From: an uncultured Ruminococcus sp.
GTDB taxonomy: Bacteria; Bacillota; Clostridia; Oscillospirales; Ruminococcaceae
Direction of reading: 5' to 3'
NCBI GenBank assembly: GCA_946537565.1
Contig: CAMNFW010000037.1
Span: 1 to 12,975, forward strand
Length of the DNA stretch: 12,975 nt
Shown piece by piece: positions 546-12,455 of the stretch (position 1 is the stretch's first letter; each line of letters begins with the position of its first letter). Both the position numbers and the translations under genes were made by a program. The notes under the pieces are model-generated. The model was given only the letters and a program-made list of their open reading frames with translations, was not told where the DNA came from and made no database searches.

Positions 546-1478
546 TTAGTTTATTGCTGCGGTCGAGGCTATATGAAGGGATTCTTCCTTTGTGGGAGTT
601 TTTATCATGACGGTATATTCAATATTATCGTCCGCAAAAGCACCCAGCCAGATGTTGTGATAGTCAGGGTCAGGTTCTTGCGAACCGGCTTCTAATGAAT
701 AGTCCGGAAGGAGAGTATTCATGCCGTGAGCATAAAAATCCTTGCCGTCCTTTTCCATAAAGAATATCTCAGGGTAGATATCGAAAGCAAGTCCCTTTGC
801 AATAACAGCTGCATCGAAATCCTCAGCATTTTCCTCAGTGCGGTCAGCGCTGGTGAAGGAGAGGGCAGCTCTGTAAAATGAACGTCTTGTGCCGTCATAT
901 TCAATACCCAGACCGGCAAAAGCTTTGATAGTATTTTCGGTTTTAGCTTCCGGGATAAGCTGAGTGAATGTCTCGTCCTCTTCTTCCTGGCTCCAGTCGT
1001 TTCCTGACATAAATAAAATGATAATGCTCTTGTCCTCATTCTGGAATCTTTTTAATGAACCGGAGGCTAATTCTGTGACATCGGAGGGAACATAGAGCGA
1101 GACCTTGCCGTCTGTGATCTGATGCCAGTCATCGGGAACTGTAAACTCCGGTATTGGCTGAGCAGTGAGATCAACGGCTTTTTTAGCGGTTTCTTTTATA
1201 AGACTGACTGCTTCATCGACCTCTTCCGGAGATGCAGAATACTCTTCAAGCAGATTGAGAGTAGTATCCTCAGCGGTAACAGGTTCAGTTTCCTCAGCTT
1301 CATCAGTTTCCTCAGCAGTGACCTCTTCTGTGTTTTCAGCGGTATCTTCCGCTGCGGAAGAGCTGTCGTTACTGACCACGCCTGCACCGGGAGAAGAGAC
1401 CCGACCGTCCTCAACTCCGCAGGCTGCTGCCGAAACAGTCATTGCCAGCAGGAGTGAAAGTATAACAAGCTTTTTCAT
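546..1478 (-). CDS. Secreted lipoprotein, paralogue of the upstream neighbour (family unknown)
   Basis: A 310-residue lipoprotein. A longer frame opens at 1514, but the ATG at 1476-1478 is preferred: it has AAGGAGAA seven bases upstream and begins directly with a lipoprotein signal (MKK, hydrophobic stretch, Cys20 after SAAA). After the cysteine comes an acidic Glu/Thr-rich linker (about residues 30-75), probably a spacer across the cell wall, then a globular domain. That domain shares many blocks with the product of 1498-2295: LTAQPI, PDDW, I-DG, GIE-DG-R, YRA-LS and R-ENAE. The pair therefore arose by tandem duplication. This copy has the longer linker and an extra segment near the C-terminus (around YSLEAGSQEPD). 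No enzyme motif is visible and the function is unknown. The gap from the upstream paralogue's stop is 19 bases, so the two are probably co-transcribed and translationally close. Confidence 0.8.
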   Translation of the reverse strand: MKKLVILSLLLAMTVSAAACGVEDGRVSSPGAGVVSNDSSSAAEDTAENTEEVTAEETDEAEETEPVTAEDTTLNLLEEYSASPEEVDEAVSLIKETAKKAVDLTAQPIPEFTVPDDWHQITDGKVSLYVPSDVTELASGSLKRFQNEDKSIIILFMSGNDWSQEEEDETFTQLIPEAKTENTIKAFAGLGIEYDGTRRSFYRAALSFTSADRTEENAEDFDAAVIAKGLAFDIYPEIFFMEKDGKDFYAHGMNTLLPDYSLEAGSQEPDPDYHNIWLGAFADDNIEYTVMIKTPTKEESLHIASTAAIN

Positions 1479-1485
1479 AATGATA

Positions 1486-1493
1486 TTCTCCTT
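1486..1493 (-). promoter_or_regulatory. Ribosome binding site fixing the lipoprotein start at 1478
   Basis: AAGGAGAA lies seven bases before the ATG at 1476-1478. It selects this start over the in-frame codon at 1514, which would put 12 residues in front of an otherwise classic lipoprotein signal. It sits in the 19-base gap after the upstream paralogue's stop. Confidence 0.75.
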
Positions 1494-1497
1494 AAGA

Positions 1498-2295
1498 TCA
1501 TGTTTTCTCAGCATCGCAAAGCTTTGCGGAAGAAGCCATTTTCAGCATCGTTTCAAAGCTGTCACCGTATATCATTGCGCTGCATTCTGTATTCTCGTCC
1601 GGGAAAGCGATCACTAAAGCTGCGGTATGTTCACCGGAAACATAACTGTCCTTGAAATCGCTGTATGTGGTAAGCGCACCGAGATATATCAGAGTGTAGA
1701 CAGGAGAATCCGGCGTTCCGCTGACAAAGACCTCCGGGAACCAGTTTCCGATGACCTGCGACTTCATAAGCGCTGCAGTCTCAAAGCTTTCAGCGTTTTC
1801 ATCAGTGCGGATATCCGGCGTTACACTGAGCAGCGCACGGTACAGATCCTTCCGGCTGCCGTCAAACTCAATGCCAAGCTCTGAAAAGGCTTTGCTGAGC
1901 GGCTCACCGCTGAGCTTTGGAAAATCCTCGTCGATATAGCTGCTGTCATATTTTTCCCAGGAGGTGGGACCGATGAACATAACATAATCGCCGGTGTCCT
2001 GGCTGATATATTTCAGTCTTTCCTTTTCGAGGTCAGGGGGAACAGTGAAGGTCATATTTCCGTCGGATATTTCTATCCAGTCATCGGGAAGCGAATAATC
2101 TGCAATTGGCTGAGCGGTCAGTTCGATCCCGGCCATAGGATCGACACTGAAAGGGTCATCGTCATCTGCTGATGATGATGATGTTGCTGCTGTTGATATT
2201 TCAGCGGCTGGATTTTTGGTGTTATCGTCCATTCCGCAGGAAACTGCCGGAACGGTCAGTGCCAGCAAAACTGAAAGTACTATAAGCTTTTTCAT
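1498..2295 (-). CDS. Secreted lipoprotein, paralogue of the downstream neighbour (family unknown)
   Basis: A 265-residue lipoprotein. The frame can be read from a TTG at 2301, but the ATG at 2293-2295 has AGGAG (2302-2306) six bases upstream and gives the cleaner signal peptide: MKKL, hydrophobic core, and Cys20 after PAVS. A short low-complexity Thr/Ser/Asp linker follows, encoded partly by GAT/GCT triplet runs. A globular domain then shares LTAQPI, PDDW, ISDG, GIEFDGSR, YRALLS and R-DENAE with the product of 546-1478. The first twenty codons are also similar between the two genes at DNA level, which suggests a fairly recent duplication. It is presumably anchored to the outer face of the membrane. 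No catalytic motif is recognised and the function is unknown. A terminator-like hairpin lies just upstream (2307-2343). Confidence 0.8.
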   Translation of the reverse strand: MKKLIVLSVLLALTVPAVSCGMDDNTKNPAAEISTAATSSSSADDDDPFSVDPMAGIELTAQPIADYSLPDDWIEISDGNMTFTVPPDLEKERLKYISQDTGDYVMFIGPTSWEKYDSSYIDEDFPKLSGEPLSKAFSELGIEFDGSRKDLYRALLSVTPDIRTDENAESFETAALMKSQVIGNWFPEVFVSGTPDSPVYTLIYLGALTTYSDFKDSYVSGEHTAALVIAFPDENTECSAMIYGDSFETMLKMASSAKLCDAEKT

Positions 2296-2306
2296 TTTCA
2301 ACTCCT

Positions 2307-2343: not shown

Positions 2344-3216
2344 CTAACGGCTTGCGGCTTCCCAAATTGCAGTTGAGCCGCAGGGAAGTGTCATACCTGT
2401 AGATCTTACAGGCAGACCGATCTCATCGAAGGAGACTTTTCCGCCGAAGCTTCCGGTGAGTACGATGCCCAGGATATAACCCATGACCGAGGGGGAAAGA
2501 CCGGTGGTATAGCTGTTTATGAGGAAAAACAGCGGATTCTCAGAGAGTACGCCGGAGCATAGCTTTACCAGGTCATAGACGCAGTTTTCCAGCTTCCAGA
2601 CCTCGCCGCCGGGACCTCTTCCATAGCTGGGCGGATCCATTATCACAGCGTCATATTTTCTTCCCCGGCGTATCTCACGGGCGATGAATTTTTCACAGTC
2701 GTCCACCAGCCAGCGGATAGGTTTATCTGAAAGACCGGAGGCAGCGGCATTTTCTCTTGCCCACTGCACCATTCCTTTGGAAGCGTCAACGTGGCATACA
2801 CTTGCGCCAGCCTCAGCACAGGCAAGAGTTGCACCGCCTGTATATGCAAAAAGATTCAGTACATTCACCGGTCTTCCGGAAGAGCGTATCTTTTCCGCCA
2901 TAAAGTCCCAGTTCACAGCCTGTTCCGGGAAAAGACCGGTATGCTTGAAGCCGGTGGGACGGATATTGAAGGTGAGGGCACCGTAGCTGATATTCCATGC
3001 ACCTGGCAGCTTCCGGCGGAATTCCCACTGACCGCCGCCCTGATTTGAACGGTGATAGTGACCGTCAGCGGTATTCCAGAGGGGGTCATTCCTATTTGTT
3101 TTCCAGATTATCTGCGGGTCGGGGCGAATGAGGCTGATACCGCCCCAGGTTTCGAGCTTTTCCCCGTCTGAAGTATCAAGAAGGATATAGTCCTTCCAGT
3201 TTGAAGCAGTTCTCAA
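2344..3216 (-). CDS. Class I SAM-dependent methyltransferase (RlmI/COG1092-like, short form)
   Basis: A 290-residue methyltransferase. It resembles the catalytic half of the RlmI-type rRNA methyltransferases but lacks the N-terminal PUA RNA-binding domain of the roughly 400-residue enzymes. Motifs in order are HTGLFPEQ (92-99), the SAM-binding motif I NLFAYTGG (121-128), HVDASKGM (142-149), DDCEKF (172-177) and motif IV DPPSYGRG (194-201). RlmI-type cytosine-C5 enzymes carry a catalytic Cys after the strand following motif IV. Here the matching stretch reads INSYTTGL with no Cys, so m5C chemistry is doubtful and the substrate is open. The start is TTG (3214-3216) with AGGAG (3224-3228) seven bases upstream, and no competing ATG fits. 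The stop of the GlmM-like gene lies 13 bases upstream, so the two are almost certainly co-transcribed. Confidence 0.85.
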   Translation of the reverse strand: MRTASNWKDYILLDTSDGEKLETWGGISLIRPDPQIIWKTNRNDPLWNTADGHYHRSNQGGGQWEFRRKLPGAWNISYGALTFNIRPTGFKHTGLFPEQAVNWDFMAEKIRSSGRPVNVLNLFAYTGGATLACAEAGASVCHVDASKGMVQWARENAAASGLSDKPIRWLVDDCEKFIAREIRRGRKYDAVIMDPPSYGRGPGGEVWKLENCVYDLVKLCSGVLSENPLFFLINSYTTGLSPSVMGYILGIVLTGSFGGKVSFDEIGLPVRSTGMTLPCGSTAIWEAASR

Positions 3217-3229: not shown

Positions 3230-4585
3230 TTAATTGTTTTGCAGGCGCTCCATAATGGTGTCAGCCACCTGGAGAGCCATAGTATTTATGGTGGCAAAAT
3301 CCTTGCCTTCGACGGTTATTCTTATAGCTGGTTCAGCGCCTGTTTCTCTTACGACAATGCGTCCTTCATCGCCGAGTATCTCATCAAATTCATCAATAAG
3401 ACCGGTAATTGCCCGGTCATTTTTCCATACCTCACGGTGGCGGCGGTCGATTCTGACAGACAGCATCACCTGGGGCATTTTTTCGATGACAGAAGCAAGG
3501 CTGCTGGCTTTTGAGCCGGAAGCCTTAAGTATCTCCAGAAGGTGAAGGGCAGTCAGCTGACCGTCTGAGGAAGGAGCATCATTGGTAAAAATAAGCTGTC
3601 CGCTGGGGTCGCCGGCAATACTGCACTGATCCTCCAGCATACGTCTTATCATGCTTCTTTCACCGGTAGAGGCTGAGAGCGCAGTGATTCCCCTGGATTT
3701 TGCAAACTGGCGCAGACCGAGATTGTTAGCAGGGGTAAGAACGATGCTGTTATTGCGGAGGGTGCCTTTTTCCTGCATATATCCGGCGCATATCCCAAGT
3801 ATCATATCGCCGTCGATGAGATCGCCGTTTTCGTCGGCAGCGAGACATCTCTCACCTGAACCGTCAAAGGAAAGACCAATATCGCAGCCGTTAGCAGTAA
3901 CGAATTCCATGACGGCGTTCATATTAGTGCAGCCGCAGTCACGGTTGATATTGGTGCCGTCCGGGGTATTTCCCATGAGGACGATCTCAGCGCCCAGCTC
4001 GGCGAAAATTCTTTTAGCAGTCAGTGAAACTATGCCGTTTCCGCAGTCTATAGCAGCCTTGACACCGTTAAGATCACCGCTGACGGCGGATTTTACATGA
4101 GCGATGTAATGGTCAAGCGCATCTGAGCAGCGGTATATCCTGCCGTATTCTCTTCTTGGTATCGGGAGCAGTTCACCGGGAAAGTCAAGGATAAGCTGTT
4201 CTATGCGTTCTTCTTTTTCCTCAGAAATTCTGTGACCGTAAGATGAGAAGATCTTAACGCTGCTGTATTCAGTGTCAGAATGAGCGCCGGAGATCATTAT
4301 ACCGCCCTGAGCCTCTTTTTCTCTTACGAGATATGCCACAGCCGGAGCAGGAACATTTCCCAGCAGCTCAGCATCAGCACCAGCAGAACATATACCGGCG
4401 CAGAGTGCAGCTTCAAGGGTATCAGATGAAGAGCGGAGGTCTTTGCCTATGAGTATTTTTGCTTTGGAATCTCTTTTTCCGGACAGTACCGCAGCAGCAG
4501 CCCGTCCTATCTGCAATGCAAGCTCACAGGTAAGCTCTGTGACAGCAATGCCTCTTATTCCGTCTTTTCCAAACATTCTGCCCAT
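3230..4585 (-). CDS. GlmM-family phosphohexomutase homologue with altered active site (probable pseudoenzyme)
   Basis: An intact 451-residue protein, full length for phosphoglucosamine mutase, which converts glucosamine-6-phosphate to glucosamine-1-phosphate for UDP-GlcNAc synthesis. It aligns along its whole length with GlmM, starting MGRMFGKDGIRG. Each active-site loop differs. The phosphoserine loop ISASHNP is ISGAHSD (98-104), with Ala101 at the phosphorylated serine. The metal loop DGDGDR is DGSGER (241-246). The sugar loop GEQSGH is GDPSGQ (325-330). The phosphate loop RPSGTEP is RETGAEP (413-419). Normal mutase catalysis therefore seems unlikely, while the frame has no stops or frameshifts and has GGGAGG eight bases before its ATG. 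It may be regulatory, structural or act on another ligand; that is inference. It lies between the C39-like gene and the methyltransferase. A canonical glmM is expected elsewhere in the genome. Confidence 0.85.
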   Translation of the reverse strand: MGRMFGKDGIRGIAVTELTCELALQIGRAAAAVLSGKRDSKAKILIGKDLRSSSDTLEAALCAGICSAGADAELLGNVPAPAVAYLVREKEAQGGIMISGAHSDTEYSSVKIFSSYGHRISEEKEERIEQLILDFPGELLPIPRREYGRIYRCSDALDHYIAHVKSAVSGDLNGVKAAIDCGNGIVSLTAKRIFAELGAEIVLMGNTPDGTNINRDCGCTNMNAVMEFVTANGCDIGLSFDGSGERCLAADENGDLIDGDMILGICAGYMQEKGTLRNNSIVLTPANNLGLRQFAKSRGITALSASTGERSMIRRMLEDQCSIAGDPSGQLIFTNDAPSSDGQLTALHLLEILKASGSKASSLASVIEKMPQVMLSVRIDRRHREVWKNDRAITGLIDEFDEILGDEGRIVVRETGAEPAIRITVEGKDFATINTMALQVADTIMERLQNN

Positions 4586-4697: not shown

Positions 4698-5231
4698 TCA
4701 GTTCTTTTTCCTGACAGCGTAAACTGCGATAGGACGCAGCTTTCCAATAATAGATTCAATGTCCGGACATACCTGGACATCAGGGTAGTTGTTATAGCGG
4801 TTGTAGACCCTTATGCCCTGGGGAGTGCGGACACAAAAAACGGTGTGTATTGAAGACAGAAAACGGTGTTTTGTCCAGAATGAGACTATAAAAGCCTCTT
4901 CATCACCTGGTTCCTTTAAACGTTCAAAGGCTGCGCCGAAATGCTCCAGAGCTTTTCCGAGCTTATACGGACTGCAGCCGAAAATACCCAGCAGCACCTT
5001 ATACCGTTCCATATAAAAAGCCACCTCATGAAGGGGCTGTGGGATATCAAGGTACTGCAAAGCGTTGTATACTGATATGACCTCGCAGCCGTTGAAGCTC
5101 ATATGGCACAGACCGTAGCGCATTCGGCTCACATCGCCCAGCCCCTGACCGTTGATCATCCGGTGGGGAAAGAAGTGATCCTTAAGGGTGATATTCTGGC
5201 TGAGGTTATATTTTCTGCTTCCTTTGATCAT
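4698..5231 (-). CDS. Papain-like / C39-type cysteine peptidase-like protein
   Basis: A 177-residue protein with the layout of C39-type papain-fold domains. NGCE holds the putative nucleophile Cys49, GIFGCSPYKL (82-91) matches the conserved G-x-P helix start, SSIHTVF supplies His129, and VYNRYNN (143-148) supplies a possible Asn. There is no signal peptide or membrane segment, so it appears cytoplasmic. That is unusual for C39 domains, which often process exported leader peptides. It could be a small peptidase, an amidase or a non-catalytic relative. The ATG at 5229-5231 has a strong GGAGGTGA (5235-5242). The 202-base gap from ruvB and the 112-base gap to the GlmM-like gene are longer than elsewhere in the cluster, so an internal promoter is possible, though I could not identify one with confidence. 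Family assignment rests on motifs only. Confidence 0.65.
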   Translation of the reverse strand: MIKGSRKYNLSQNITLKDHFFPHRMINGQGLGDVSRMRYGLCHMSFNGCEVISVYNALQYLDIPQPLHEVAFYMERYKVLLGIFGCSPYKLGKALEHFGAAFERLKEPGDEEAFIVSFWTKHRFLSSIHTVFCVRTPQGIRVYNRYNNYPDVQVCPDIESIIGKLRPIAVYAVRKKN

Positions 5232-5433: not shown

Positions 5434-6492
5434 TTAAAATGTCAGCTGACCGTCACTGCTGCCTGACTGATCATCCGGCGCAGCGATGCCCAGATGTTCA
5501 TAAGCAAGCTTTGTGGCAACACGTCCACGGGGAGTTCTTCCAAGAAAACCCAGCTGCATGAGGAAAGGCTCGCACACATCTTCCAGTGTTACGGATTCCT
5601 CACCGATAGCAGATGCGAGGGTCTCAAGACCCACCGGGCCGCCGCCGTAGCCTTTGATTATCATGGTGAGCATTCTTCTGTCGAGGCTGTCGAGACCCAG
5701 CTGATCTATTTCCAGGCGGCTCAGGGCGATCGAAGCGATATCCCTTGTTATTCTGCCGTTGCCCATGACATCAGCGAAGTCTCTTACACGTTTCAGCAGC
5801 CGGTTAGCTATACGTGGCGTACCTCTTGCACGGCCAGCGATCTCGGCAGCACCGTCGGTATCACAGGGGATACCGAGGATCAGAGCGCTTCGCTTTACGA
5901 TATCAGCCAGCTGATCTTTAGAGTAAAGCTCCAGACGCTGGATAACGCCGAAACGGTCACGGAGCGGAGCAGAGAGCTGACCGGCTCTTGTGGTAGCACC
6001 GATGAGGGTAAAGGGTCTCAGGTCCATTCTGATAGAACGGGCAGAGGGACCTTTACCTATAATAATGTCGATAACTCTGTCCTCCAGAGCCGGGTAGAGT
6101 ATTTCTTCGACGGCACGGGAGAGGCGGTGTATCTCGTCGATGAACAGCACATCATTGTCGGAAAGGCTGGTCAGCAGCGAGACAAGATCGCCGGTTTTTT
6201 CGATAGCCGGACCTGTGGTTACTCTCAGGTTGACACCCAGCTCATGGGCGATAATGCCGGAGAGGGTAGTTTTGCCGAGACCGGGAGGACCGTACAGCAG
6301 CACATGATCGAGGGGTTCATTTCGCCGTTTTGCAGCTTCGATATATACAGCGAGATTTTCCTTTACTTTATCCTGACCGATATATTCATTAAGAGTCTGG
6401 GGGCGGAGACCGAGTTCGGCTTCGCTGTCCTCAGCAGCTGCTTCCGGGGATATAACTCTTGGGGCGAATTCCATATCCTCTGTCTGAATCAT
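5434..6492 (-). CDS. ruvB: Holliday junction branch migration DNA helicase RuvB
   Basis: A 352-residue AAA+ motor protein of the RuvABC complex, which drives ATP-dependent branch migration of Holliday junctions. Motifs are Walker [10 protein letters not shown] (68-76), Walker B VLFIDEIH (115-122), sensor GATTRAG (165-171) and APLRDRFG with the arginine finger (175-182). The C-terminal winged-helix region contains [11 protein letters not shown] and [11 protein letters not shown]. Length fits the family. The ATG at 6490-6492 has a GGGAGGG ribosome site just upstream. The gene lies 38 bases downstream of the SseB-like gene, which separates it from ruvA; in many Firmicutes ruvA and ruvB are adjacent. 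A minus-one frame stays open for 37 codons beyond the stop (see findings). Confidence 0.98.
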
Positions 6493-6530: not shown

Positions 6531-7265
6531 TCATCTCTCGAAATAACGTTTTTTGCGGACATAGAACGGGTCAACTGTATCAGCGGCTTTTTTGCCCATA
6601 TCCTGTTCCATGCTGATAAAGCAGAGATGCTCACTGGACTTGGTTACCTTTGCGAGATATTTTGAAAGGGGAACGAAGAGTTTTCTTGTGCTTCCCATCA
6701 TATCCAGCACCAATAGCAGCTGAGGCTTTTCGCAGCCCTTGACCATTTCCATGAGGAAGGCTCTGTCAACATTTTCCTGTTTGGACAGGAATTTATGGGC
6801 AGCTTTGGTGATATGGCTGACGTTATGTTCACAGGGGCGGTAGCTGATGATATCAGCCTCGTTATAGGAGATAGCCTTGATCTTAAGATTTCTTGCAATC
6901 ATGAGGATGCTCTTGATCTCCTGGGAAGAGAATTCCTTGCCGTAGGAATTGGGGTTCAGTACAGCAGAAGCAGACTGTATCAGGTCGAAGAGGCGGAGAC
7001 AGTTTATCTTATAGCTCTCCACATATCTCTTTGCAAACTGCTGCAAAGACCTGTAGCTGGAGAAGAAGGGGATAAAAATATCACCATGGGGATTTTGAAT
7101 GGTGATAAGTTCCAGCTGGATTCCACCTTCGGCTTTGCCTCTTTCCTGGCGGACTGGATTTTTGCAGATAACGTATACATCGCTCTTAATAAGGGTCTGC
7201 AAAAAGAGCGAACGTTTTGACGGATCCTTGATCGCCGCCTTCAGCAGTTCATCAAGATTCATCAT
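6531..7265 (-). CDS. SseB-family protein
   Basis: A 244-residue protein with the two-part layout of the SseB (enhanced serine sensitivity) family. The N-terminal domain contains GDIFIPFFSSYRSLQQFA (61-78) and LNPNSYGKEFSSQEI (103-117). A C-terminal domain begins near residue 180 (KPQLLLVLDM) and ends DPFYVRKK (232-239). The molecular role of SseB proteins is not settled, and the E. coli name comes from an overexpression phenotype. There is no signal peptide, so it is likely cytoplasmic. Two adjacent ATGs (7263-7265 and 7260-7262) follow a GGAAG site; the second has slightly better spacing, so the true protein may be one residue shorter. The gene is embedded 24 bases after ruvA and 38 before ruvB, clearly part of the ruv transcript. 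Confidence 0.75.
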   Translation of the reverse strand: MMNLDELLKAAIKDPSKRSLFLQTLIKSDVYVICKNPVRQERGKAEGGIQLELITIQNPHGDIFIPFFSSYRSLQQFAKRYVESYKINCLRLFDLIQSASAVLNPNSYGKEFSSQEIKSILMIARNLKIKAISYNEADIISYRPCEHNVSHITKAAHKFLSKQENVDRAFLMEMVKGCEKPQLLLVLDMMGSTRKLFVPLSKYLAKVTKSSEHLCFISMEQDMGKKAADTVDPFYVRKKRYFER

Positions 7266-7289: not shown

Positions 7290-7910
7290 TTATCGCTTGT
7301 TAGCAGATAAAAGTCTTAAAGTTTCGGTAATAAGCTCCTGAGTAGAAAGAGCCGGGTCGAGCTTGCCGAGAATAGGAGCAGCCTCACCCTGGGAATAGCC
7401 GAGTACCATGAGAGCTGCCAGCGCATCGGAAACATTTGAAGCCGCCTCTGGTGAAGACACAGAGGAAAGCTGCATAACATCGCCTGAAACTGAACCGCTG
7501 ATAGATTCCGAGGATATTTTGTCCTTGAGCTCAAGAACTATTCTCTGGGCGGTTTTAGCGCCGATGCCTTTAGTTCTGGTGAAAGCCTTGCTGTCGCCGG
7601 AAGCGGCATAGAAGGCGAATTTTTCGGGGGTCATATCCGAGAGTATAGATACCGCAGCCTTCGGACCTACACCGGAGACTGATATCAGCAGCCTGAAACA
7701 GTTAAGCTCCTGCTGTGTGGCAAAGCCGAACAGTTCGACCGCATCTTCACGGACATAGAGGCTGGTATAAAGCATTGCCTCGCTGCCCACTGCACCAAGT
7801 GCAGCAACGGTGTTGTATGAGGTCTTGCAGCCGTAGCCGACACCTCCGCATTCTATAACGGCGAAGTTCATCTCCTTGACGATGAGTTTGCCTTTCAGAC
7901 TGTATATCAT
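7290..7910 (-). CDS. ruvA: Holliday junction branch migration protein RuvA
   Basis: A 206-residue DNA-binding subunit that tetramerises on the Holliday junction and loads RuvB. The N-terminal OB-fold domain is followed by two helix-hairpin-helix motifs, VSGVGPKAA (78-86) and KGIGAKTAQR (114-123). A flexible Ser/Val-rich linker (about 133-158) leads to the C-terminal RuvB-contact domain. Length is typical. The ATG at 7908-7910 has AAAGGA upstream at a somewhat long spacing, inside the small palindrome GAAAGGATCTTTC. ruvC ends 61 bases upstream and the SseB-like gene starts 24 bases downstream. Confidence 0.97.
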   Translation of the reverse strand: MIYSLKGKLIVKEMNFAVIECGGVGYGCKTSYNTVAALGAVGSEAMLYTSLYVREDAVELFGFATQQELNCFRLLISVSGVGPKAAVSILSDMTPEKFAFYAASGDSKAFTRTKGIGAKTAQRIVLELKDKISSESISGSVSGDVMQLSSVSSPEAASNVSDALAALMVLGYSQGEAAPILGKLDPALSTQELITETLRLLSANKR

Positions 7911-7971: not shown

Positions 7972-8457
7972 TTACTGCCAGCGAGTTGAATGACCGTGGC
8001 AGATAGCAATGGCAAGGGCATCAGCAGCGTCATCGGGTTTAGGAATCTGAGCCAGATTCAGGAGCTGACGGGTCATTTCCATGACCTGATTTTTTTCAGC
8101 TTTGCCGTAGCCGGTGACAGCGGATTTTACCTGCAAGGGGGTGTACTCAAATATCGGCACATTTCTTTTTGCAGCGGACAGGACGGTGACACCTCTTGCC
8201 TGAGCGACATCAATGGCAGTTTTCTGGTTTGAGGTGAAATACAGCCTTTCCACCGCCATACACTCCGGCTTGAATTTTTCAAAAATAAACTCCATATCCT
8301 CATAGATAGCCTTAAGTCTTTCGGGGAAGGGAGTGTGAGCTTCAGTCAGCACAGCGCCGTACTCCACAGGTGTGAAATTGATACCGTCATAGTCCAGCAC
8401 ACCGAAGCCGACAATAGCGTATCCGGGGTCAATTCCGAGTATTCTGATAGTCTTCAT
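7972..8457 (-). CDS. ruvC: Crossover junction endodeoxyribonuclease RuvC
   Basis: A 161-residue Holliday junction resolvase that makes paired nicks across the junction after RuvAB-driven migration. All four catalytic acidic positions of the RNase H-like fold can be placed: Asp10 in GIDPG, Glu70 in AVERLYF, and Asp143 and Asp146 in PDDAADALAIA. The length fits the family. It is the first gene of the minus-strand cluster, with a good promoter about 50 bases upstream (8508-8537). It is divergently oriented from the YmdB-type gene. Confidence 0.97.
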   Translation of the reverse strand: MKTIRILGIDPGYAIVGFGVLDYDGINFTPVEYGAVLTEAHTPFPERLKAIYEDMEFIFEKFKPECMAVERLYFTSNQKTAIDVAQARGVTVLSAAKRNVPIFEYTPLQVKSAVTGYGKAEKNQVMEMTRQLLNLAQIPKPDDAADALAIAICHGHSTRWQ

Positions 8458-8701: not shown

Positions 8702-9472
8702 TTGAAAAATTTACTGTTCATTGGCGACGTAGTCGGAAAAGCCGGCTGCGGATTTCTTGCTGCAAAGCTGAGCCGGCTGAAGCAGCTGTACAACATCGAC
8801 ATAACCATTGTAAACGGCGAAAATTCCGCCCAGGGAAATGGTATCAGCCGTCAGTCGGCGGATATGATATTCAATGCCGGAGCGGATGTGATAACCACGG
8901 GAAACCATGCTTTCCGCCGCCGGGAATATCCTGCGGTCTTTGAGGACAGGTATATACTTCGTCCGGCGAATTATCCCGAAGGGGGCGCACCGGGAAGAGG
9001 CTGGTGCAGCATAGATATGGGAGCGTATTCAATAGCCGTAGTGAATCTGATGGGAACGGTGTTTATGGATCAGCTTGACAATCCATTCACAAAGATCGAC
9101 GGGATTCTTGATGAGATAGATACACCTAATATTTTTCTTGACTTTCACGCCGAGGCGACCTCCGAGAAAAAAGCTATGGGACATTATCTCACCGGAAGAG
9201 TTACCGGAGTTTTCGGCACCCACACTCATGTGCAGACGTCTGATGAGATCATACTGGGCGGACATACAGCTTACATTACAGATGCCGGAATGACCGGGCC
9301 GGAGGTATCCTGTCTTGGAGTTGAAAAGGAGCTGGTTATAAACAGGTTCCGTTTTCATACGCCTGTGATGTTCAAGGAAGCGGAGGGAGACTGTTTTTTG
9401 TGCGGTGTATGTGTAGAGTTTGATGAAAAGTATGGCAAATCGCACAAAATCGAACGTATAATTATAAGATAG
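8702..9472 (+). CDS. ymdB: YmdB/TIGR00282-type metallophosphoesterase (cyclic nucleotide phosphodiesterase)
   Basis: A 256-residue binuclear metallophosphoesterase, the usual family length. The Bacillus YmdB enzyme hydrolyses cyclic nucleotides and affects biofilm and motility gene expression. Metal-site residues are placed at Asp9 (IGDVVG), Glu40 and Asn41 (NGEN), Asn68 and His69 (TGNHAF), His149 (DFHAEATSEKKA) and His174/His176 (GTHTHVQTSDE). The family's usual GNH-x-W-D is GNHAFRR here, a mild local divergence. The start is TTG with GGAG seven bases upstream, driven by a perfect consensus promoter. spoVS follows 119 bases downstream; a ymdB-spoVS neighbourhood is common in Firmicutes, although the RNase Y gene often found just before ymdB is not here (ruvC lies there, divergent). 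Confidence 0.92.
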   Translation: MKNLLFIGDVVGKAGCGFLAAKLSRLKQLYNIDITIVNGENSAQGNGISRQSADMIFNAGADVITTGNHAFRRREYPAVFEDRYILRPANYPEGGAPGRGWCSIDMGAYSIAVVNLMGTVFMDQLDNPFTKIDGILDEIDTPNIFLDFHAEATSEKKAMGHYLTGRVTGVFGTHTHVQTSDEIILGGHTAYITDAGMTGPEVSCLGVEKELVINRFRFHTPVMFKEAEGDCFLCGVCVEFDEKYGKSHKIERIIIR

Positions 9473-9495
9473 TCTACAAAAATTCCTCGAAACCC

Positions 9496-9524
9496 TTGCA
9501 ATTTTATTTAGTTTGTGATATAAT
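9496..9524 (+). promoter_or_regulatory. Promoter of spoVS
   Basis: TTGCAA (9496-9501), a 17-base spacer ending TTGTGA, then TATAAT (9519-9524). The extended -10 (TGATATAAT) matches those at 8508 and 12667. Transcription should start near 9531, giving a leader of about 60 bases ending in AGGAGGG (9578-9584). Confidence 0.8.
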
Positions 9525-9591
9525 GAAAATGGACTATAGCTTTATTTATATTTTCCAATGTATTTAAAAATTATTTTAGGAGGGTATCACC

Positions 9592-9852
9592 ATGGAGATC
9601 TTAAAAGTTTCATCACATTCCGCACCGAATTCTGTTGCCGGAGCTATCGCAGGAGTTATCAGGGAGCAGAAGGCTGTTGAAGTTCAGGCTGTAGGAGCCG
9701 GCGCAGCTAATCAGGCAATAAAAGCTATAGCTATCGCCAGAGGCTATCTTGCACCTATCGGCATAGACCTTATTTGCATACCTGCTTTTGCAAATATCCA
9801 GATCGACGGCGAAGAAAGAACCGCTATCAAGCTCATCTGTGAGCAGAGATAA
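9592..9852 (+). CDS. spoVS: Stage V sporulation protein S (SpoVS)
   Basis: An 86-residue protein, full family length and highly typical: MEILKVSSHSAPNSVAGAIA, then VQAVGAGAANQAIKAIAIAR and the C-terminal ERTAIKLICEQR. SpoVS is a small Alba-like protein needed for proper spore coat and septation steps in Bacillus; homologues also occur in non-sporulating Clostridia. It has its own promoter and an AGGAGG site eight bases upstream of the ATG, and is closed by a strong terminator, so it is probably expressed as a single-gene transcript with some read-through from the YmdB-type gene. Confidence 0.96.
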   Translation: MEILKVSSHSAPNSVAGAIAGVIREQKAVEVQAVGAGAANQAIKAIAIARGYLAPIGIDLICIPAFANIQIDGEERTAIKLICEQR

Positions 9853-11555: not shown

Positions 11556-11587
11556 TTGAAATTCAGGGGATAATTGTGTATTATAAT
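11556..11587 (+). promoter_or_regulatory. Promoter of the plus-strand lipoprotein gene
   Basis: TTGAAA (11556-11561), a 17-base spacer, then TATTAT (11579-11584), overlapped by a better hexamer TATAAT (11582-11587) at 20-base spacing. Transcription likely begins near 11591, leaving a structured leader of about 75 bases. Confidence 0.65.
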
Positions 11588-11595
11588 ATTAACGG

Positions 11596-11636
11596 CAGGA
11601 GCAGTACACCCTCTCGATTTTTTGATGCAGCTCCTG
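11596..11636 (+). promoter_or_regulatory. Leader hairpin of the lipoprotein mRNA
   Basis: A perfect seven-base stem, CAGGAGC (11596-11602) with GCTCCTG (11630-11636), sits at the predicted 5' end of the transcript around a 27-base loop. The loop contains CCTCT, complementary to the AGAGG of the gene's ribosome site (11652-11656), so mRNA protection or translational control is possible (inference). Confidence 0.45.
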
Positions 11637-11666
11637 GAAAATAATTATGAAAGAGGTACACATTTT

Positions 11667-12455
11667 ATGAAGAAGCTTATTTCATGTCTGGTTCTCAGCG
11701 CAGTTATCTGCGGCGCATTTGCTTCATGCGGAAAGTCGTCATCATCGTCATCATCATCATCTGAAGAAGCTGCAACTGAAGCAGCTACAGAGGCTGCAAC
11801 TGAGGCAGCTGAAGAGAATGCAACTGCTGCTGCTGAGGAAGAGGACGAGACTGTTGCTATCGCTGTTGACGATGTTGATTTTGAGGACGCTGTAGAGGCT
11901 AAGACCGGCGATGCTTACCTTGCTTATGCTGACAGCCAGTGGTGGATCCAGTCCTTCGGAAACATCGACAGCCCCCTTACTTATGATGCAGGTGTTGCTG
12001 AGATCAAGGGCAACGGTGATTATACCGTAAGCCTTACTTCCGAGACCAACGGCTTCCGCTTCGATACAACAGGCGATCCCAACGGCGAGTATTATCCCAG
12101 CGGTGCAAACTTCATGGCTGTTGTTATAAAGGACGCTGAGACCGCTCTTCCTGACGCTATTATCACTATCAACAGCATTAAGGTAAACGGCAAAGAGGTC
12201 GAGATGAAGGCTAAGAACTATACCAACACCGAGGACGGCTCTATCCGTTCCAATATCTATAACGCATACGTTGAGGACAGCGCTCTTCCTGGAGATGCAA
12301 GAACCGCTGACGGTTTCCTCTTCAACAACTACGATACTGCTTCACCTAACTTTGAGGAGGGTGAGTACTCTGCTAAGCTGATAGATGCTGAAAAGGATCT
12401 CAGCGAGTGGAAGACTATCGAAGTAAACTTCACTGTTTCAGGCCTTGCAGAATAA
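11667..12455 (+). CDS. Secreted lipoprotein with Ser and Glu-Ala-Ala-Thr linker (function unknown)
   Basis: A 262-residue lipoprotein. The frame is open from 11574, but the ATG at 11667 follows AGAGG with a ten-base gap and starts a lipoprotein signal ending at Cys21 (AFASC). Next come nine serines and four EAAT-type repeats, then an acidic stretch: a flexible spacer of about 45 residues. The rest (about 75-262) looks like a secreted beta-sandwich, with Trp-rich QWWIQSFG and GNGDYTVSL, then FMAVVIKD, IKVNGKEVEM and SNIYNAYVEDSALP. This resembles carbohydrate-binding-type modules seen in ruminococcal and lachnospiral surface proteins, but I cannot assign a family. Codon choice favours GCT, GGC, AAC and CTT more than its neighbours, suggesting high expression. 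It has its own promoter, a leader hairpin and a strong terminator, so it is a single-gene unit. Confidence 0.85.
   Translation: MKKLISCLVLSAVICGAFASCGKSSSSSSSSSEEAATEAATEAATEAAEENATAAAEEEDETVAIAVDDVDFEDAVEAKTGDAYLAYADSQWWIQSFGNIDSPLTYDAGVAEIKGNGDYTVSLTSETNGFRFDTTGDPNGEYYPSGANFMAVVIKDAETALPDAIITINSIKVNGKEVEMKAKNYTNTEDGSIRSNIYNAYVEDSALPGDARTADGFLFNNYDTASPNFEEGEYSAKLIDAEKDLSEWKTIEVNFTVSGLAE
11736..11813 (+). repeat. Triplet run and 24-base repeat coding the lipoprotein linker
   Basis: Nine serine codons (TCG, TCA or TCT; 11736-11762) are followed at 11766-11813 by four 12-base units encoding EAAT-like blocks. Synonymous codons alternate (GCTGCAACT in units 1 and 3, GCAGCT in units 2 and 4), so the DNA repeat unit is really 24 bases. 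Copy changes would lengthen or shorten the linker without a frameshift. Confidence 0.75.

Follow-up and report, generated by a model that had tools for sequence, protein, structure and literature searches.

The GlmM homologue encoded at the ruv locus of Ruminococcus is probably a retired phosphoglucosamine mutase, kept as a non-catalytic protein after a second, separate and canonical GlmM had taken over catalysis. We call the ruv-locus homologue B and the second GlmM A. GlmM is essential for peptidoglycan, and a non-catalytic role of the protein is known from some Firmicutes. The main result reaches beyond the window (the whole stretch of DNA that was analysed, 12,975 nucleotides from an uncultured Ruminococcus sp.): a repeated hand-over of GlmM catalysis with the old protein retained, of which we found no description in the open-licence literature searched. 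A possible, though tentative, extension is that the original GlmM does a further, non-catalytic job for which the other GlmM is no substitute, and that a bacterial family of GlmM pseudoenzymes has evolved repeatedly.

The ruv-locus copy and its active site

Read as an ORF, the B gene of the window has an ATG start, 451 codons and no internal stop. The first-pass annotation, made from the letters alone, had described this intact GlmM-like frame, with alanine instead of the phosphoserine and every one of the four active-site loops changed; these readings were borne out. The features of the locus are as follows.

2344..3216, minus strand: methyltransferase-like gene (PF10672), 3' of B, in conserved order
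3230..4585, minus strand: B, GlmM homologue of 451 aa that keeps 6 of the 14 scored catalytic-loop residues
3329..3349, minus strand: phosphate loop RETGAEP, residues 413-419 of B
3419..3433, minus strand: E-x-W-K-N, residues 385-389, conserved in altered and intact B and absent from A
3596..3613, minus strand: sugar loop GDPSGQ, residues 325-330
3848..3865, minus strand: metal loop DGSGER, residues 241-246, with Ser and Glu replacing the second and third Asp
4229..4231, minus strand: Arg119, which is Lys in 11 intact B and 54 A copies and Arg in 40/40 copies of the window's clade
4274..4294, minus strand: phosphoserine loop ISGAHSD, residues 98-104, with Ala101 at 4283-4285 (canonical in the genus: ISASHNP or ISASHNS)
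4698..5231, minus strand: 177-aa protein with no Pfam match even at an E value of 1; in most genus loci it lies between ruvB and glmM
5434..6492, minus strand: ruvB, in conserved order
6531-7265, minus strand: SseB-like gene, between ruvA and ruvB in most genus loci (weak match to NF008624, 69.2 bits for a cut-off of 295)
7290-7910, minus strand: ruvA, named from its reading frame and place, without a family search
7972-8457, minus strand: ruvC, named in the same way, without a family search

All four PGM_PMM domains (I-IV) of the window's B score over the Pfam gathering cut-offs, which places it in the alpha-D-phosphohexomutase superfamily. The NCBIfam glmM model (TIGR01455) is its best sequence match among all families scanned and covers it nearly end to end, at 418.8 bits (cut-off 447.55); three other copies from the genus reach 530.6 (an A), 559.9 (a B with 14/14 residues) and 489.8 bits (a B with 12/14). 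The best solved relatives are also GlmM proteins (7ojr, 3pdk and 6gyz). The window's B is thus like GlmM in fold family, the four domains, length and orthologous locus, but it falls under the model cut-off and differs at 8 of the 14 scored positions in the catalytic loops, the phosphoserine included.

The serine that carries the phosphate in the GlmM active site is replaced by Ala101, and the three metal-binding aspartates (DGDGDR or DGDADR), kept in all 54 scored A copies, have given way to DGSGER. Residue 119 is presumably the counterpart of a catalytic lysine of the superfamily. In the phosphate loop, RETGAEP had been read correctly, but the E of RETG is no change in this lineage, because canonical copies of the genus read RESGTEP. 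Trp387, within E-x-W-K-N, is found in 77/77 altered and 11/11 intact B copies, with Ala at that place in 54/54 A copies. That a sequencing error should be the source of the window's alanine alone is unlikely; the 90% cluster of the protein holds 3 member sequences from 2 contigs, one of which (15,174) exceeds the window contig.

What we call the window's clade is a set of 40 B copies chosen by D241, E245 and R246. Besides these defining residues, G242, C247, G325, G329, E414 and Arg119 are fixed in all 40, P327 (39/40), G416 (39/40) and R413 (38/40) are nearly so, and D326 (35/40) and Ser101 (35/40) are mostly kept. His102 occurs in 28/40, and the widest variation is seen at positions that include 103, 328, 415 and 417. 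Of the two variants whose conservation had been in question from the start, the metal-loop change is therefore shared, but Ala101 belongs to a minority (5/40, window included) and is the least shared change. The pocket of the clade may have been remodelled and may still bind something.

The locus was surveyed in 121 of the 125 genus genomes (G039, G067, G092 and G096 were left out). As far as the fetched stretches extend, the order in the genus is ruvC, ruvA, sseB-like gene, ruvB, 177-aa protein, glmM and methyltransferase, the sseB-like or the 177-aa gene being undetected in some genus loci. Outside the genus, ruvC-ruvA-ruvB-glmM-methyltransferase is found in most fetched loci, the exceptions being L312, where such neighbours are missing, and L293, which has the methyltransferase alone; the 177-aa protein was not detected in the fetched loci outside the genus. 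The window's copy shares the gene order and lies on the same side of the A/B split as the other ruv-locus copies, and B is the family's original (ancestral) GlmM, not a stray copy. A search of genome contigs gave 4 named loci, all Ruminococcus.

Some neighbouring genes deserve mention in their own right. The 177-aa protein is fast-evolving (about 37-69% identity to the window's copy across genus loci) and resembles, by eye only, a small cysteine-peptidase-like fold. The window also holds three lipoprotein-like frames (546-2301, minus strand, and 11574-12455, plus strand; signal and Cys recognised by eye) with no Pfam family over cut-off, two of them adjacent and similar by eye. A gene for a TIGR00282-family metallophosphoesterase followed by a SpoVS gene lies at 8702-9852 (plus strand).

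Presence of A and the state of B

A (about 461 aa) was found in 109 of the 125 genus genomes, at an identity of at least 67% to the query copy. All 14 scored catalytic-loop residues are present in each of the 54 genus copies fetched out of these 109, and also in 30 A loci from a family search (3 of these from the genus). One branch with full support separates A from B in a quick tree of 85 rows, which carried a warning of some long branches; A is therefore no recent duplicate of B. Its distribution in the family is patchy (37 of 247 genomes at an identity of at least 55%, 34 of the 37 outside the genus by hand count). Among the 45 genus genomes that are at least 95% complete, a hand count finds A missing in three (G104, G029 and G083), and all three have a B with 14/14 residues.

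We scored the 110 B copies of at least 425 aa for the same residues: 11 keep all 14, 22 keep 10-13, 63 keep 4-8 and 14 keep 0-3. Left out of this scoring were (i) broken or lost copies in G024 (144 aa, stop), G077 (296 aa, frame broken), G106 (222 aa) and G014 (no B), (ii) copies cut by contig ends in G066 (378 aa) and G094 (288 aa) and partial copies in G050 (263 aa) and G035 (135 aa), and (iii) copies below the length limit in G122 (416 aa), G109 and G038 (424 aa each). On the genus tree, B is intact in 9 of the 11 rows without A and non-intact in 95 of the 97 rows with A, a distribution for which the Fisher test ignores kinship. When other genera are included (137 rows with more than 400 aligned residues, 131 of them with both traits; G194 and G036 dropped out), A accompanies an altered B in 101 rows and an intact one in 3, and is missing beside an intact B in 25 and beside an altered one in 2. 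A test on independent pairs allows for kinship: 10 pairs differ in A, and B differs in 7 of them, each time in the direction expected (sign test, p = 0.0156, range 0.0156-0.0312). Without G000, G074 and G036 there are 8 pairs and p is unchanged; in this reduced set, counting every B with at least 12 residues as intact gives p = 0.031 (range 0.0156-0.0625). The genus alone has 4 informative pairs (p = 0.125), too few for significance.

Two rows combine an altered B with no A: that of the window's genome, which is 90% complete, and that of G074 (70%); G036 (73%), scored but outside the tree, has the same combination. In the three tree-set genomes of the opposite kind, A stands beside a B that still has 14/14 residues. 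Outside the genus, 8 A-carrying loci were fetched, picked non-randomly from genomes with a separate ruv-type match, and have a strongly altered B in six cases, 13/14 residues in one and 14/14 in one. On the genus tree, the serine state of residue 101 shows no fewer than 13 changes. In 19 genomes, G034 among them, B keeps 12/14 residues, with the phosphoserine and every one of the three aspartates in place; such copies may be active or altered enzymes and were counted as altered, not as dead. Canonical loops at this locus, which the first-pass annotation had named as a sign that the window's copy is only decayed or mis-sequenced, do occur among the homologues, but almost solely where a second GlmM was not found; this pattern therefore fits a hand-over of function and not random decay.

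The same annotation had expected a second canonical glmM in the window's own genome, and there the expectation failed: A was not found in the assembly (90.16% complete, 310 contigs). From the rest of the genus, A is predicted to lie in the unassembled tenth. The genome has GlmU, over cut-off, so the organism needs GlcN-1-P. Its contig C101 encodes a 571-aa PgcA-like mutase whose loops look intact and which could, in principle and by analogy, help with the GlcN-1-P step. The slot next to hrcA, which holds A in several relatives, holds a Thr-rich protein in the window's genome, A's neighbours varying among relatives. This protein (contig C157; 2518-5205 of L216, minus strand) has 895 aa and is repetitive and, by eye, surface-protein-like.

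Selection on B and alternative explanations

Protein distances were expressed relative to those of ruvC, ruvA, ruvB and the methyltransferase. Their median is 1.02 for A (1127 pairs) and 1.24 for intact B (54 pairs), and in altered B it is 3.47 for copies with 10-13 residues (194 pairs), 2.92 for 4-8 (1766 pairs) and 3.38 for 0-3 (85 pairs), i.e., an evolution about three times faster than that of the neighbour genes; the pairs behind these distances and behind the dN/dS values (Nei-Gojobori on the joint alignment) are non-independent. For copies with at most 8 residues the median dN/dS is 0.114 (70 pairs, dS 0.1-1.0, range 0.05-0.35, maximum 0.348), so that the check on selection proposed at the outset came out as purifying selection. 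The corresponding medians are 0.175 for B with at most 3 residues (20 pairs), 0.057 for A (97 pairs) and 0.112 for intact B (21 pairs, dS up to 1.5). If pairs up to dS 1.5 are admitted, altered B has 0.205 (258 pairs, maximum 0.526) against 0.091 for A (484 pairs). Being low but above that of A, the dN/dS of altered B indicates a sequence that is constrained as a protein, if more loosely than A, and the last comparison, together with the threefold faster evolution, points to relaxed constraint. Of the 104 columns invariant in the 11 intact B and 54 A copies, the 14 catalytic ones are kept in a fraction of 0.41 of the 77 altered B copies and the other 90 in 0.70 (Mann-Whitney test, p = 0.0013). 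In this alignment the loss of residues is targeted to the active site, which follows in part from the use of these 14 residues to choose the altered set.

For the window and its clade, loss of catalytic residues thus goes together with purifying selection, the pattern of a pseudoenzyme at the sequence level. From the absence of frame decay, the first-pass annotation had concluded that the protein is kept for a non-mutase role. This conclusion gains from the purifying selection on altered B, from its retention at the same locus and from the link between its erosion and A, but the missing A of the window's genome tells against it.

B is present in 120 of the 121 loci, and in 4 of the 121 it is broken or lost. 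There is no glmM in G014, where the matches to the 177-aa protein and the methyltransferase lie 17 bases apart (L196, about 3278-3296); G024, G077 and G106 have a broken frame, the last with a stop in the methyltransferase as well, so that assembly errors are possible in it. In 14 of the 34 genomes with A outside the genus, an uninspected hand count gave only two matches, as expected if B is gone. Since B is absent or broken in some genomes, its role would be useful, not indispensable. The same losses, with the threefold faster evolution, would also be expected if B were functionless and in slow decay, either for want of time or because the frame aids translation of the genes downstream. We consider this quite unlikely, given that the dN/dS of altered B lies between 0.05 and 0.35, not near 1, and that B persists at all but one locus, with at least 425 aa in 110 copies, in lineages with at least 13 changes of serine state on the tree. 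One might also suppose that the pocket of the window's clade was not killed but remodelled for another reaction or substrate, as its fixed residues (G242, C247, G325, G329, E414 and Arg119 in all 40 copies, P327 in 39 and Ser101 in 35) could suggest. A new enzyme is nevertheless unlikely: five of the 40 copies, the window's included, do without the serine, positions 103, 328, 415 and 417 are highly variable, and other lineages have lost different residues, down to 0/14, so that one new reaction fails to explain all cases.

Could B still serve this organism as its functional GlmM, either through an unusual active site or with help from another phosphohexomutase? Its assembly yielded no A, the presence of GlmU means that GlcN-1-P is required, and the mutase-like protein on C101 recalls PgcA of B. 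subtilis, which has a side activity as GlmM according to the available part of PMC6797236. That system resembles the present one in the redundancy of phosphohexomutases for the GlcN-1-P step but involves no loss of catalytic residues, and it matters here solely because the window's genome may have a helper of this kind. We judge a working B to be very improbable, as the assembly is only 90.16% complete and in 310 contigs, as the three A-less genomes among the 45 most complete ones all have B at 14/14, and as the other scored genomes with altered B and no A are G074 and G036, at 70% and 73% completeness.

CdaA, known counterparts and a proposed mechanism

In Firmicutes, GlmM inhibits the c-di-AMP cyclase CdaA by binding to it (PMC8573169, from the part available), and a CdaA-type domain was found in all 15 genomes searched, the window's included. 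Both points would favour a role of B as a dedicated CdaA regulator through the B. subtilis-type contact. The position of Arg126, key for GlmM binding, is however Ser or Thr in 15/15 CdaA proteins of the genus (L236-L250); it was mapped as 45 residues before Asp171 of DGA, for which the CdaA of the window's genome was aligned with the solved protein and the remaining 14 were compared by eye at the same motif. On the GlmM side, Asp151 occurs in 54/54 A copies and in 1/11 intact B copies, and the window's B has Arg, Asp and Glu at sites 151, 154 and 195. The B. subtilis-type pair (Arg126 with acidic residues at 151, 154 and 195) is not found here, and such a dedicated regulator is extremely improbable. 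Against this residue argument, substituting alanine only on the GlmM side had little effect on the B. subtilis complex in the excerpts of PMC8573169. The pattern argues against a contact of the B. subtilis type, not against every GlmM-CdaA contact; given the Ser or Thr in all 15 CdaA proteins, GlmM control of c-di-AMP is maybe absent or differently built. The inhibition of CdaA does resemble our case as a non-catalytic, protein-binding role of GlmM (PMC8573169, PMC6368335, each in part), but there it is the canonical enzyme of the cell that binds, and the contact residues are not conserved here.

Another counterpart is PGM5 (aciculin-type) of vertebrates, which the accessible portion of PMC7761743 describes as an inactive phosphoglucomutase paralogue that still binds substrate and whose differences lie in active-site loops that matter when the intermediate is flipped. 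In both cases a phosphohexomutase without activity, as presumed for B, would stand beside an active one. B differs in losing residues of all four loops, in that the altered gene is the original one, in the many lineages concerned and in being bacterial.

We infer that altered B has lost mutase activity and has a non-catalytic role, and propose the following course for the hand-over to A. B is the ancestral GlmM of the family at the ruv locus, and A would carry the essential step from GlcN-6-P to GlcN-1-P. Relieved of catalysis, B would lose Lys119, the second and third metal aspartates and residues of the sugar and phosphate loops, and the window's copy would additionally lose the phosphoserine. 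B would be retained, most likely, for a non-catalytic role already present in the original GlmM, namely the binding of another protein, for which a sugar phosphate might serve as a gate; such gating is suggested because the window's clade has fixed a new pocket pattern (D-G-x-x-E-R-C, G-D-P and R-E-x-G). Each time catalysis was handed over to A, selection would then hold the old protein for its non-catalytic function alone. In our preferred reading, the partner would be one inherited from the old GlmM, and it might be A itself.

A practical consequence concerns annotation: among 11 public records of this protein group that were checked and are named phosphoglucosamine mutase, 9 keep at most 8 of the 14 residues. 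If the proposed hand-over is true, the residues conserved in altered B would map a partner of GlmM, and the natural series of species would separate the catalytic from the second role of GlmM without made mutants, showing which residues are important for the second.
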